IMG/VR virus record: IMGVR_UViG_3300010354_005044
Coordinates: 1 to 42,175 of that record
DNA from: a virus
DNA length: 42,175 bases
Direction: 5' to 3' (one strand)
Shown: positions 8,774 through 27,449 of the stretch, in pieces
Numbering within the stretch: position 1 is the first letter of the stretch
Layout: each line of letters starts with the position of its first letter
Notes under the pieces: generated by a model
What the model was told of the DNA's origin: nothing
The model's input: the letters and a program-made list of their open reading frames with translations, nothing else
The model's database searches: none
Position numbers and translations under genes: made by a program

Positions 8774-10099
8774 TCAGTTGCTCATAGCCCTCCAAGTCGG
8801 AGGGCTATTTACTTTATTAAAGAACTGATCAAGATCTTCTGAATATCCAGATTTTATATTTATTGGAGTATCTTTATTTTTTAACATTGATTGTGTTTTT
8901 GCTAATCTAGCACCTGGATTTCCAGAGACAATTTCTTTAAACTTATCGAGATTTGTCTGCAACATTTCAATTTTTTCATTTACTGAATTTTTTGATTTGT
9001 ATAAAATTTTATTACTTTCATCAATAAGTTCATCTGCTTGAGTAGGTGTTTCTACTGGTGGTAATAAATCTTTAGTTGTTAACTGTGGAGTTTCTTGATC
9101 TATATTTTCTGGCAATAAATCATTCGTTGATGTTGACTCAGATTCTACCTTTTCATCTGGTGGGATTAAATCATCTGTTGTTAATTGTGAAGTTTCTTGC
9201 TCTTTATTTTCTGGTAATAGATCGGATGTAGAAATCTGCGTAGTTTCTTTTTCTGCTTCTTGTGGTAGTAAATCAGTTATAGAAACTTGTTCTGTCTGTT
9301 GAGCTGTTTCTTCTGGTAATAAATCGGAAGTGGAGATCTGTTCTACTTCCCGACTATCTTCTTGTGGTAACAAATCAATAGTAGAAGTTTGTTCTACTTC
9401 TTGGACATCTTCTTGTGGAAGTAGATCTAATGTAGAAGTTTGTTCTACTTCTTGTGTATCTTCTTGCGGTAATAAATCTATCGTAGAAATCTGTTCTATT
9501 TCCTGACCATCTTCTTGTGGTAACAAATCAATAGTAGATGCCTGTTCTACTTCTTGTGTATCTTCTTGTGGAAGTAGATCTAATGTAGAAGCTTGTTCTA
9601 CTTCCTGGACATCTTCTTGAGGTAACAGATCTATTGTAGAAACTTGTTCAATTTCATTTTCTTGTGGCGGTAGAAGATCTATTGTAGAAGCTTGTTCTAC
9701 TTCTTGTATATCTTCTTGTGGAAGTAGATCCAATGTAGAAGCTTGTTCTACTTCTTGAACATCTTCCTGTGGTAACAAATCAATAGTAGAAGCTTGTTCA
9801 ATTTCATTTTCTTGTGGAGGTAGAAGATCTACAGCTGATTCTATTGTATTACTATTGGATTGTTCTTCTGAGTTTTTTGTTTCTATTGTAGTTAGGCTAG
9901 AATAATTTGTATCTGGTATATCTACAGTTTCAATTTCTTGTGTTTGTTCTTCTGGATTATTATTTAAATCTGTTTGGGGAGAAGATTCTAAAAAATCAGA
10001 ATATTCGTTTGATCCTGTTGGAACTGGAGCTGGAACCATAGAATCAATATTAAAAAAGTCAAAATTAGTATAGTTTATGTTGGGTGTTTCGTCTTTCAT
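8774..10099 (-). CDS. Repeat protein with sixteen DLLP units, downstream of the hub chaperone
   Basis: A 441-residue acidic protein. Residues 1-87 are low-complexity (Asn, Thr, Glu, Pro). Residues about 88-355 are sixteen tandem units of about 17 residues, consensus STIDLLPQEDVQEVEQ, nearly identical in the middle (units 2-10) and divergent at the end. Residues 360-441 have a predicted coiled segment (DELIDESNKILYKSKNSV, then a Lys/Glu-rich helix) and a basic tail. No family is recognised. It lies directly downstream of the gp26-like chaperone and overlaps its frameshift extension by 35 bases; in many phages the gene after the frameshifted tail chaperone is the tape measure, so a tail or hub role is the first guess. 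Other possibilities are an assembly scaffold or a multivalent ligand. Confidence 0.8.
   Translation of the reverse strand: MKDETPNINYTNFDFFNIDSMVPAPVPTGSNEYSDFLESSPQTDLNNNPEEQTQEIETVDIPDTNYSSLTTIETKNSEEQSNSNTIESAVDLLPPQENEIEQASTIDLLPQEDVQEVEQASTLDLLPQEDIQEVEQASTIDLLPPQENEIEQVSTIDLLPQEDVQEVEQASTLDLLPQEDTQEVEQASTIDLLPQEDGQEIEQISTIDLLPQEDTQEVEQTSTLDLLPQEDVQEVEQTSTIDLLPQEDSREVEQISTSDLLPEETAQQTEQVSITDLLPQEAEKETTQISTSDLLPENKEQETSQLTTDDLIPPDEKVESESTSTNDLLPENIDQETPQLTTKDLLPPVETPTQADELIDESNKILYKSKNSVNEKIEMLQTNLDKFKEIVSGNPGARLAKTQSMLKNKDTPINIKSGYSEDLDQFFNKVNSPPTWRAMSN
8784..8815 (+). terminator. Terminator of gene 32
   Basis: A ten-pair stem ATAGCCCTCC/GGAGGGCTAT (8784-8793, 8799-8808) with a five-base loop, followed by the T-rich TTACTTT. 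It begins 22 bases after the gp32 stop. The stem lies inside the last codons of the converging minus-strand gene, so the same DNA encodes that protein's C-terminus. The T-tract is imperfect. Confidence 0.75.
9035..9838 (-). repeat. Tandem 51-bp coding repeat, 16 units
   Basis: In-frame 51-bp repeats (two units are 48 bp, those with PPQENEIEQ) encode the DLLP units of the protein above. Central units are nearly identical at DNA level, for example repeated GTAGAAGCTTGTTCTACTTC on the plus strand, which points to recent expansion by slippage or unequal recombination. Unit number probably varies between relatives. Confidence 0.9.
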
Positions 10100-10268
10100 T
10101 TGCTTTCTTTTCTTGATCTTCTAACCAAATCTTATGCTGTAGCATGTAAACATCTTTTTCCCATGGTATTAATGATTCTAATTCGTTTATAGAAATATTT
10201 GCGCCTGTGCTCAAAAAATGTGTTACTTTGTAAAAAGAAATAACATTATTGTGAGTCAGGCATGTGTA
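10065..10268 (-). CDS. -1 frame extension of the gp26-like chaperone (67 codons)
   Basis: An open frame with no suitable start codon of its own in its first 18 codons; it is entered by a -1 shift on the T7 run at 10268-10274. Its product reads FYKVTHFLSTGANISINE, then LESLIPWEKDVYMLQHK, then WLEDQEKKANERR. The IPWEKDVY... helix with a charged end is the kind of short C-terminal domain that frameshifting adds to tail assembly chaperones (lambda G-T, P2 E-E'). Together with the first 225 residues of the chaperone the fusion would have 292 residues. It overlaps the start of the repeat protein by 35 bases. Inferred from sequence; an independent start (for example TTG) is less likely but possible. 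Confidence 0.75.
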   Translation of the reverse strand, partial: YTCLTHNNVISFYKVTHFLSTGANISINELESLIPWEKDVYMLQHKIWLEDQEKKANERRNTQHKLY

Positions 10269-10942
10269 AAAAAATTGAGAATACCCTCCAATTTTGTGCT
10301 TTTTTCTGTTCCATCTTTTGTATAATATCTAATTATTGATGTTATTTTTGGTAATCCATTGACAAATAATTTTATTTTTTCGTATTCAGAAATTGTTAAA
10401 TTTGATAAAAGTTGATCTACAATTTCTTCACTAATATCATCATATCCAAGAACATTTTCTTCCATATAAATTTTAGCTATCGATGCTTTTAGGAAATGTT
10501 TTGTATCGAAATCTCCATTCATTTCTAAAATTTTATATACTTTTGGTTCTTTTAATATAATTTTTGTAGATTCGTCCAAAGATATTTCTTTTTCTTTGAT
10601 TCCAGCTACAATTGCTATTTTTGATAGATCAACTTTTGTTTCTATATTTTCTTTCGTTGAAGGACATGTAAAGTTTACCTTAACTGTTTCTCCTATTGAC
10701 TTCGATCTAAGATTACAGAAAAGATATTCCATATCTTGTAAAGTTAATTCTTTTGGATCTATATTTTTAAAACAACTTTCCAATAAATCCAAAATTGTTC
10801 TAAAAATTATTCTGGTATTTTTTTCTTCTTTAATTAATAGTAAAGATTTTTCATCTGATACTAAAAATGGTCTGAAGAAAACTTCTTTATTTTTACTTGG
10901 TAATACACAAGAGTATTCTGGATATCTTCGTTTAAAATTCAT
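10256..10942 (-). CDS. 26: Baseplate hub assembly chaperone, gp26-like
   Basis: A 228-residue protein with the features of the gp26-like family of T4-like phages: an N-terminal strand pair VFFRPFLVSDEKSLL, a helix with ILDLLESCFKNID, the MEYLFCNLRSKSIGE segment, and then a small beta part with TCPSTKEN that could hold a reduced zinc knuckle. In T4, gp26 is needed for assembly of the baseplate hub. The reading frame ends LNFFTHA-stop, and the codons AAT TTT TTT just before the stop form a slippery site for a -1 shift. It begins two bases after the stop of the tube-like gene and is in a minus-strand operon gp4, tube-like, gp26, repeat protein. Confidence 0.8.
   Translation of the reverse strand: MNFKRRYPEYSCVLPSKNKEVFFRPFLVSDEKSLLLIKEEKNTRIIFRTILDLLESCFKNIDPKELTLQDMEYLFCNLRSKSIGETVKVNFTCPSTKENIETKVDLSKIAIVAGIKEKEISLDESTKIILKEPKVYKILEMNGDFDTKHFLKASIAKIYMEENVLGYDDISEEIVDQLLSNLTISEYEKIKLFVNGLPKITSIIRYYTKDGTEKSTKLEGILNFFTHA
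10268..10274 (-). promoter_or_regulatory. Programmed -1 frameshift slippery site (seven T)
   Basis: On the minus strand the zero-frame codons are AAT TTT TTT ACA, so T TTT TTT is a canonical X XXY YYZ heptamer in the right phase, 12 bases before the zero-frame TGA. A slip lets ribosomes read 67 more codons. Confidence 0.75.
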
Positions 10943-10944
10943 AA

Positions 10945-11490
10945 TTATCTCGCTTCATAATATCTAAAATTAAAAATAACATCATATGTTGCGTTCCCAG
11001 AATTAGGTTCTGAGTCAAAATCTATTGGAAGAATAACTGCTGGAAATGCTTCTTTGAATGTAAATGTACATGCTACAGTCCCATTGTATGTCAATGCTTT
11101 AAGAGTTACTGTTCCCTGTTTAGCACAATCATCATAAAATTTAATGGCTGTAAGTTTACCAGATACTCCAGCATTTAAAGAACCCAATCCATTAAACCAA
11201 CTTTGTATAATCTTATATGTTGCCCAGTCTTGTTCTACCGGGAATCTTATTAATAATCCTTTATCGCTTTCATATGTTGGATTTGTTGGAATATTTCTTC
11301 CAATTCCTGGTCCAGTGTTTCTATCTGGAGTTAATTCAACCCCTCTTTGTCCAAAGCTGGCATATATTGCTGGTATCGACTCTACACTAGTAATATTCCC
11401 GCATTCCGAGGAAAAATCCACAGAAAATCTATTTCTTCTTTGGATACCATTATGTTCTGAAATTTTTGCTATTAGTTCGTCTGGAGTCAT
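10945..11490 (-). CDS. Tail-tube-like protein, probably hub or tube initiator
   Basis: A 181-residue protein with the gp19-type tube layout: an N-terminal RRNRFSVDF strand after GIQ (compare GGTRKNRFRV in the gp19 copies), a middle part with LLIRFPVEQDWATYKIIQSWFN, and a closing AFPAVILPIDFD then FNFRYYEAR strand pair. Tube, tube-initiator (gp54, gp48) and terminator proteins share this fold. Its place before the gp26-like chaperone, away from the three gp19 copies, suggests a baseplate or hub tube ring, not the main tube. It overlaps the end of the gp4 gene by four bases (ATGA). Confidence 0.6.
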   Translation of the reverse strand: MTPDELIAKISEHNGIQRRNRFSVDFSSECGNITSVESIPAIYASFGQRGVELTPDRNTGPGIGRNIPTNPTYESDKGLLIRFPVEQDWATYKIIQSWFNGLGSLNAGVSGKLTAIKFYDDCAKQGTVTLKALTYNGTVACTFTFKEAFPAVILPIDFDSEPNSGNATYDVIFNFRYYEAR

Positions 11491-25403: not shown

Positions 25404-25816
25404 ATAAATTAAATGATTTTTTTGAAATAGAATCTGCTGGAAAAACAGCTAACAGCGAAATTCAGAAATCATCTGAAAATGATTATGAATATGCCAGAGA
25501 AAATTTGTATGACATAATTCAAAAATCAAAAGTTGCCCTTGAGGGAATCATGAAGGTTGCCTCTGAGGGAGATTCACCAAGAGCATATGAAGTCGTGACT
25601 CAAATGCTCAAAACCATGTCAGAGATCAACAAGGATCTTATAGATTTGGAAAAGATCAAGAACGAAGCAAACAAGACCACAATAAAGACAACCACAAATA
25701 ATTCGTTCTTTATTGGCTCAACAAGTGATCTTCAGGATTTAATCAATCCTGAACGGAGCAAGAAAAAGGCTCTAGATATAATTGATGCGGAAGTGAAGAA
25801 TGTCGAGGAAATTTAA
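25394..25816 (+). CDS. 16: Terminase small subunit gp16
   Basis: Recognises phage DNA and stimulates the gp17 packaging motor. 140 residues from the ATG (T4: 164). The central part matches the family: YEYARENLYDIIQKSKVALEGI, the AYEVVTQMLKTMSEINKDLIDLEKI coiled coil and a basic C-terminal portion SKKKALDIIDAEVKN. A TTG at 25382 would add four residues; the ATG at 25394 is preferred. It overlaps gp15 by ten bases and gp17 by 17 bases, a tight packaging operon. Confidence 0.9.
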   Translation: MSVNKLNDFFEIESAGKTANSEIQKSSENDYEYARENLYDIIQKSKVALEGIMKVASEGDSPRAYEVVTQMLKTMSEINKDLIDLEKIKNEANKTTIKTTTNNSFFIGSTSDLQDLINPERSKKKALDIIDAEVKNVEEI

Positions 25817-27449
25817 AGGTTACTTAGGTAATCCAAACCTAAAAGAAGCTGGAGTAAAGATTGACTTCACCGAAGAACAGATTCGGGAGTATGTTCGTTG
25901 CTCCCAGGATCCAATCTATTTCATCAAGAAATACATCAAAGTCGTGTCTCTGGATAAGGGTCTAGTTCCATTTGAACTATACGATTATCAGGAGGAAATG
26001 GTCAAGAAAATGCATGACAATCGTTATATCATTGCCAAACTGCCTCGTCAGTCTGGTAAGAGCACCACGATTGTAGCCTTCATTCTACATTACATTCTGT
26101 TCAACCAGAGCATGAGCGTGGGTATTCTGGCCAACAAGATGAATACAGCCAGAGAAATTCTTGGCAGACTTCGCCTAGCCTACGAATATCTTCCCAAGTG
26201 GCTTCAGCAGGGTATCATTGAATGGAACAAGACTTCTATTCATTTGGAGAATGGCTCCAAGGTCATGGCCTCTGCCACCTCATCATCCGCTGTTCGTGGT
26301 GGTTCGTTTAACTTAATCTTCTTGGACGAATTTGCTCACGTTCCCCAGAACGTGGCCGAAGAGTTTTTTAGTTCAGTTTACCCTACAATTACATCAGGTC
26401 AGACAACCAAAGTATTCATGGTATCTACCCCAAACGGTCTGAACATGTTCTACAGCTTCTGGAAGGGGGCTACAAGGAAGCCTGGGGACGAAGGAAAGAA
26501 CGAGTACGTCCCCATAGAGGTATCATGGAGACAGGTTCCTAAGTACGCTGGTGGGCCTCTGCGAGATGAGGAATGGAAGCAGCAGATGATTGCTCAAACC
26601 AGCGAACAGCAATTTGAGCAAGAATTTGAGTGTTCATTCCTTGGATCTTCAAATACTTTGATTAGTTCAAGTAAACTAAATTTATTGCAATTTGACAAAC
26701 CTTTAGTTAAAGAACCGGGGGGTCTTTACATCTACGACGAACCGAAAGACGAGCATGCTTACTTCATTATGGTCGATACTGCTAGAGGCCAAGGTAGAGA
26801 CTACACGGCAATGGTAGTAATTGATTCTACTGAAAAACCACACAGAGTTGTGGCTAGGTATCGAAACAATACCATTTCGCCATTTGATGTTCCTCCCGAA
26901 TTATATGCTTTGGCGACAAAATATAATAACGCCCACTTACTAATCGAAGTAAATGACATTGGTGGCCAGATTGCCGATGTTATGCATGAAGAATTTGAAT
27001 ACGAAAACATCATTCAGACCACGATGATGGGTAGAGCTGGCCAGAAAGTTTCTCTTGGGTTTGGAAGAGGAACAAAACAAAGAGGGGTTAGAACCAGCGC
27101 AGCAGTCAAAAAACTGGGGTGTGCTGTTCTAAAAACTCTAATCGAACAAGATAAATTACTTGTTAGGGATTATGACATCATTCAAGAATTGATGACATTT
27201 ATTTCCAAACATCAAACATTTTGTGCGGATGATGGTTATACAGACGATTTAGTTATGTGCTTGGTTTTATTTGGATGGCTAACTCGACAGGGCTACTTTG
27301 AAGAGATCATAGACATACAAAGGAAAAAAATTATAAATACCACAGAGAAAGAGGAGGAAGAGAACACTACTTTTTTTATGGGTTCGCGGGAATTTGATAT
27401 AGAAAACACATTTAAAGAAGGTAATTCTCTTTGGTTTACCGAGGAATAA
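25800..27449 (+). CDS. 17: Terminase large subunit gp17
   Basis: Packaging ATPase and nuclease that drives DNA into the prohead. 549 residues (T4: 610). ATPase domain: Walker A RQSGKST at 83-89, Walker B LIFLDE at 172-177, motif III MVSTPNG at 208-213. Nuclease domain: MVDTARGQGRDYTAMVVID with the metal Asp near 326, a middle LLIEVNDIGGQIA, and a late DDGYTDDLVMCL with further acidic residues. It overlaps gp16. Base composition changes inside the gene: before about 26640 it is GC-richer, after that it is AT-rich. A perfect late promoter box for the sheath genes lies in its 3' end. Confidence 0.97.
   Translation: MSRKFKGYLGNPNLKEAGVKIDFTEEQIREYVRCSQDPIYFIKKYIKVVSLDKGLVPFELYDYQEEMVKKMHDNRYIIAKLPRQSGKSTTIVAFILHYILFNQSMSVGILANKMNTAREILGRLRLAYEYLPKWLQQGIIEWNKTSIHLENGSKVMASATSSSAVRGGSFNLIFLDEFAHVPQNVAEEFFSSVYPTITSGQTTKVFMVSTPNGLNMFYSFWKGATRKPGDEGKNEYVPIEVSWRQVPKYAGGPLRDEEWKQQMIAQTSEQQFEQEFECSFLGSSNTLISSSKLNLLQFDKPLVKEPGGLYIYDEPKDEHAYFIMVDTARGQGRDYTAMVVIDSTEKPHRVVARYRNNTISPFDVPPELYALATKYNNAHLLIEVNDIGGQIADVMHEEFEYENIIQTTMMGRAGQKVSLGFGRGTKQRGVRTSAAVKKLGCAVLKTLIEQDKLLVRDYDIIQELMTFISKHQTFCADDGYTDDLVMCLVLFGWLTRQGYFEEIIDIQRKKIINTTEKEEEENTTFFMGSREFDIENTFKEGNSLWFTEE
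27332..27339 (+). promoter_or_regulatory. T4-type late promoter, perfect TATAAATA, inside gene 17
   Basis: Exact TATAAATA with A/T-rich flanks, about 117 bases before the first sheath gene. It would let the sheath and tube genes be expressed more strongly than the terminase. Confidence 0.6.

Follow-up and report, generated by a model that had tools for sequence, protein, structure and literature searches.

Sequence comparisons make it very likely that a single gene on the minus strand of the window, the 42,175-nucleotide stretch of viral DNA analysed here, encodes two tail assembly chaperones, a short and a long form, by means of programmed -1 frameshifting. This reading, which had been proposed in a preliminary description of the sequence, is supported because the slippery heptamer is conserved, the domain encoded in the -1 frame is under selection, many relatives lack a usable start codon for this domain, and plausible stimulatory elements are present. 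The positions of the relevant features are listed in Table 1.

Table 1. Features of the gp26-like gene and its surroundings in the window.
Feature	Position	Strand	Basis
gp26-like gene, 0 frame, probable short tail assembly chaperone, 228 aa	10256..10942	-	PF12322, PHROG 150, AlphaFold
Slippery heptamer T_TTT_TTT	10268..10274	-	in phase in 160/160 distinct relatives
0-frame stop codon TGA	10256..10258	-	sequence
-1 frame extension, gp51 C-terminal domain, 67 codons + stop	10065..10268	-	PHROG 634, 35-relative alignment, dN/dS, extension HMM
GGAGGG, internal Shine-Dalgarno-like stimulator (putative)	10284..10289	-	clade conservation, synonymous randomisation
Putative downstream stimulatory stem	10202..10262	-	fold z, RNAalifold, covariation
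Upstream gene, tail-tube-like protein	10945..11490	-	PHROG 45 tail tube, E 7e-16
Next gene, acidic tandem-repeat protein	8774..10099	-	start inside -1 frame

On the minus strand, the 0 frame ends with CTC AAT TTT TTT ACA CAT GCC TGA, in which T_TTT_TTT lies in the X_XXY_YYZ phase, with 9 nt between the end of the heptamer and the TGA stop codon, or 12 nt when the stop is included. In the -1 frame the last T is re-read, giving TAC ACA TGC CTG ACT and so on, and this frame contains 67 open codons up to the stop codon at 10067-10065, resulting in a calculated fusion of 225 + 67 = 292 aa. In the -1 frame no possible start codon precedes codon 18, a TTG, which is followed by an ATG at codon 41, and both are located within the conserved domain. 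The preliminary description had given the same 3' end and coordinates, the same phase and distance of the seven T residues, a -1 frame of the same length, a 292-residue fusion, and no good early start codon, and all of this was correct on re-reading and recomputation. T6-type heptamers are found six times per ~11,800 codon-phase positions in the main genes of the window, and the slip-site heptamer is the only one of these six that is situated 10 nt or less from the stop codon of its own gene. When the window is considered alone, the probability that such a stop-proximal heptamer occurs by chance is low but not negligible, and it is the related sequences that settle this question, since the heptamer is kept in phase in every one of them (see below). 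A second in-phase TTTTTTT heptamer is present in the terminase large subunit gene (25800-27449, plus strand), 69 nt before the end of that gene.

Relatives were gathered by gp26 similarity, the largest sets by using motifs from the N-terminal part of gp26, and their 3' ends were thus not selected for the presence of the heptamer. After removal of duplicates, and with one record (L195) set aside, 160 distinct non-T-even sequences with a readable end formed the basis for the counts. A correctly phased T_TTT_TT[C/T/A] precedes the 0-frame stop by 0-24 nt in all 160, having six T residues followed by a C in 129 of them, and wherever the -1 frame is complete it comprises 56-73 codons, so that aligning related genes, as the preliminary description had suggested, brought out both a conserved heptamer and an open -1 frame. 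The groups that carry the heptamer are cyanophages, KVP40-like Vibrio phages, the Methylophilales phage Melnitz-2, the Stenotrophomonas phage Mendera and the Acinetobacter phage nACB2, and protein identity to the window is about 24-35% for the members that do not belong to its own clade. These relatives share ancestry and the 160 counts are not independent events; the weight of the conservation is carried by the breadth of phage groups. The residue preceding the Phe-Phe pair is variable (Ser, Asn, Asp, Ala, or Gly), the third base of its codon is always T, and the first Phe codon of the slip site is always TTT, compared to 73% TTT elsewhere in the same genes. Comparison of synonymous and non-synonymous changes, another check that had been proposed at the outset, yielded dN/dS values of 0.16-0.23 for the extension past the 0-frame stop in the window's clade, which are close to those of gp26, while reading this DNA in the other frames gave pN/pS values of ~1 or more in most pairs. 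The -1 domain is therefore under purifying selection, with a dN/dS of ~0.2.

Frames that are joined at a homopolymer might also be explained by a sequencing error, or by decay of the gene with loss of its frame. Homopolymers are indeed error-prone, and L195 lacks a T that is present in its sister L194, but the occurrence of the same layout in 160 distinct sequences rules out this explanation, both parts of the gene are under purifying selection, and we consider its probability negligible. As for L195 itself, one T of the slippery run (near 2244-2260) is missing compared to the near-identical, Mendera-like L194, which would put gp26 in the wrong (+1) frame and is probably a homopolymer sequencing error. 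In another record, L204, a T-even-type gp51 gene is broken around position 1860, where one base has changed within a run of A residues (CAAAAACCC), which is likely a sequencing error as well, as judged from this record alone. Both records were set aside as apparent single-base homopolymer errors.

Slippage of RNA polymerase, instead of the ribosome, is a known alternative way to join two frames, for example in Thermus dnaX (PMC5009743). Here, an extra U would have to be inserted on the T run, and although the seven T residues of the window would suit such a mechanism, the run is limited to six T residues and a C in 129 of the 160 relatives. A run of six T is short for polymerase slippage. Moreover, the exact codon phase and the Shine-Dalgarno (SD)-like and stem elements described below favour the ribosome, which makes polymerase slippage highly improbable.

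Most GenBank records annotate gp51 as a separate small gene, which would be translated by coupled re-initiation near the gp26 stop codon. In 97 of the 160 relatives, the -1 frame indeed has an ATG at one of its first 13 codons, and such starts have been annotated in the P-SSM4 and Mendera records; however, 47 of the 160, including the window, contain no ATG, GTG or TTG in these 13 codons, so that the presence of a separate ATG, put forward earlier as a possible refutation, was only partly informative. In P-SSM4, the SD-like sequence GAAGGA is situated ~24 nt upstream of the annotated gp51 ATG, which is outside the usual initiation spacing and too far from this ATG to be its ribosome-binding site. 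The annotated starts are also inconsistent: gp51, or its unnamed equivalent, has an arbitrary length of 61 aa in P-SSM4 (L001), 29 aa in RN05-S (L003), 47 aa in Melnitz-2 (L005), and 54 aa in Mendera (L007), all in the -1 frame after gp26. Such scattered starts are easier to reconcile with an overlooked fusion than with a genuine gene. Re-initiation also leaves the in-phase heptamer of every relative and the gp51 fusion of T4 (see below) unexplained. A free-standing gp51 gene was rejected because its start codons are absent or misplaced, and translation by re-initiation seems very unlikely. In records of T4-like marine phages, the tail of the long form is thus often listed as a small separate gene with an arbitrary start, and such gp51 genes should be re-annotated as -1 frameshift product.

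The proteins encoded by the two frames belong to known families. The 0-frame protein matches PF12322 (T4_baseplate) over its full length (profile positions 2-218 of 219, E 5e-44) and PHROG 150 (E 4e-45). The -1 extension of the window (FYKVTHFLSTGANISINELESLIPWEK), which was aligned with those of relatives (35 in total) and compared with the C-terminus of T4 gp51, matches PHROG 634 (E 3e-14), the gp51 family, which is annotated as "baseplate hub assembly catalyst". PF12322 is matched end to end by both T4 gp26 (208 aa) and T4 gp51 (249 aa), the latter having 48 additional C-terminal residues beyond this match, and PHROG 634 covers residues 147-246 of T4 gp51 (E 1e-23). An HMM of the frameshift-encoded extensions matched the gp51-type C-termini in 11 of 11 T-even loci, and nothing else there. 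T4 gp51 is thus gp26 with this C-terminal domain joined to it in one frame, and together the PF12322, PHROG 634 and HMM matches indicate that gp51 is the counterpart of the 292-aa fusion and gp26 that of the 228-aa product. The suggestion in the preliminary description that gp51 might be related was therefore well founded, as the -1 domain is the gp51 C-terminal domain. The T-even gp26 genes lack the heptamer, T4 gp26 ending in GAG TTC TTT GAG, and in a census the nine whole frameshift-type records had a single PF12322 gene each, versus two in each of five T-even phages. The 42-kb window contains one PF12322 gene, which carries the slip site, and the two-gene arrangement of the T-evens was not encountered, so that the arrangement in the window is of the frameshift type and not of the T-even type.

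Structure prediction with AlphaFold gave a confident model of the N-domain, with a pLDDT of 88.9. The extension is predicted to be helical, with a pLDDT of 78.6. In BFVD, the N-domain model matched gp26-type hub proteins of Vibrio, Rhizobium, Aeromonas, Campylobacter, and Bacillus phages. A Foldseek search of this model against the PDB gave no significant match; the highest probability among the matches listed was for the HK97 tail assembly chaperone (2ob9), which was not significant (probability 0.30, E 1.2, TM 0.42 by target). A sequence search of solved structures did not give a match either.

Two elements around the slip site are likely stimulators of frameshifting in the window's clade. 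The first, GGAGGG, is located 9 nt upstream of the slip site. A GARGG core is found in nearly all relatives, ending about 8-11 nt before the heptamer, with a mean anti-SD duplex energy of -7.0 kcal/mol versus -1.9 kcal/mol elsewhere in the genes, and its spacing fits the 9-14 nt reported for SD stimulators of -1 frameshifting (PMC5009743). In the window's clade the sequence is TTG/CTG GAG GG throughout, even though GAG accounts for 7% of the Glu codons otherwise, and less than 1% of synonymous randomisations pair as strongly as the native element. The SD-like pairing in this clade is thus stronger than codon choice explains. In the groups beyond it, there is a modest excess of SD pairing and GAG is enriched overall, but GARGGN is largely dictated by a conserved Leu-Glu-Gly. 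A universal SD stimulator is therefore supported in part only, as Leu-Glu-Gly accounts for most of the signal outside the window's clade.

The second element is a putative stem that starts 6 nt after the slip site, in which UGCCUG (10262-10257) pairs with CAGGCG (10207-10202) and which is extended by another short helix, formed by 10255-10252 and 10213-10210 (CUCA/UGAG in the window). The fold has a z-score of -3.27 in the window, and the same stem was recovered in the RNAalifold consensus for the window's clade, with pairing in 98.6% of cells compared to at most 53% for slid versions. Two pairs have undergone compensatory changes, one from G-C to A-U in L022 and the other from U-A, as found in relatives, to C-G in the window, and this covariation, based on eight distinct rows, is supportive but not conclusive. 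The stem is absent in the more distant relatives L024, L033, and L034. A universal downstream stem was also considered, but inspection of single cyanophage folds revealed no common structure, and in the 50% relatives no such stem was evident.

The gp26-like gene is flanked by a tail-tube-like gene upstream and by a repeat-protein gene downstream. The latter overlaps the -1 frame by 35 nt, which the preliminary description had regarded as a consequence of the frameshift; however, frameshifting does not in itself explain this overlap. The product of this next gene is acidic and consists of tandem units of ~17 residues, such as STIDLLPQEDVQEVEQA. Homologues are also found 3' of the frameshift in L012, L013, L014, L017, L023, and L025, and in close relatives the start and end of the protein are conserved (e.g., PPxWR near the C-terminus), with a length that ranges from 224 to 830 aa. 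No known family was matched by the product in the window, which is not recognisable as a tape measure protein; in some relatives weak tape-measure matches were obtained. The gene occupies the position of the tape measure gene in lambda-like phages.

Based on these data, we propose that most ribosomes halt at the TGA and produce the 228-aa gp26-like short form, while a minority would slip back one base on T_TTT_TTT and produce the 292-aa form with the gp51 domain, probably helped by pairing of GGAGGG with 16S rRNA and by the downstream stem. It should be mentioned that T_TTT_TTT belongs to the heptamers for which far less slippage than on A_AAA_AAG has been reported in E. coli (PMC5009743), which counts against this reading. 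By analogy with lambda G/GT, the tape measure would be coated by many short and few long chaperones, and the long form might attract subunits of the tail tube or hub via its gp51-type tail. The G part is what attaches both lambda forms to the tape measure, whereas the T part interacts with the tail tube protein (PMC5009743). This corrects the preliminary description, in which tape measure binding was ascribed to the long form. Both gp26 and gp51 appear among the hub assembly chaperones listed for T4, whose assembly requires gp51 even though the particle does not contain this protein (PMC3004832); by analogy, this would fit a chaperone role.

Although no account of frameshifting in cyanophage gp26 was found in the literature under that name, the frameshift claim, while right, seems to have been largely anticipated by Vladimirov, Gautam and Davidson (2022; Virology 566:9-15), at least as this study is cited by others. 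According to PMC12846349, it describes poly-T slip sites in the TAC-N genes of T4-like phages, and according to PMC10885494, the PRFect paper, some T4-like phages have one short and one fused long chaperone gene and no frameshifting. Going by these citations, T4-like gp26/gp51 were apparently already described as tail assembly chaperones with poly-T slip sites in 2022, and aspects that may be new are how widely the census extends, the likely stimulators in this uncultured clade, and the clear division into one-gene and two-gene phages. Tentatively, at somewhat less than even probability, non-T-even T4-like phages may share an ancient gene 26 cassette, consisting of an SD-like element, T_TTT_TTY, and in some clades a covarying stem, from which the T-even 26/51 pair would have arisen by duplication, one copy having lost the slip site and the two frames having been fused in the other. 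If so, novelty would lie in the stimulators and in the direction of change, but not in the chaperone assignment. Independently of this origin, the two-product reading gives the two puzzling T4 hub genes a clear meaning, as gene 26 would encode the short chaperone and gene 51, whose product has traditionally been termed a catalyst, the long one, and these roles become testable in phages in which one slip site controls both.

The arrangement resembles lambda gpG/gpGT and P2 E/E' in that a short and a long form are made from one gene in the tail region by a -1 shift near its 3' end, but no detectable sequence relation was found and the size of the N-domain is different. HK97 gp13 (2ob9) shows weak structural similarity only, and only to the N-domain of the window. 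The cassette resembles that of Escherichia coli dnaX, with an upstream SD-like stimulator, a heptamer, a short spacer, and a downstream stem; however, the protein is unrelated, the heptamer is A_AAA_AAG in dnaX and T_TTT_TTT in the window, and frameshifting in dnaX yields the shorter of the two products. Closest are the T4-like gp26/gp51 chaperones (PF12322), which belong to the same family, have the gp51-type C-terminal domain, and for which, in the citing papers, a poly-T slip site is reported; compared to the cases described there, the GGAGGG element and the stem of the window's clade may be new. In T4, the equivalent pair of proteins comes from two paralogues, gene 26 for the short form and gene 51, an in-frame fusion, for the long form, and T4 and the other T-evens thus use two genes and no slip site, whereas the window has one gene and a probable -1 shift.
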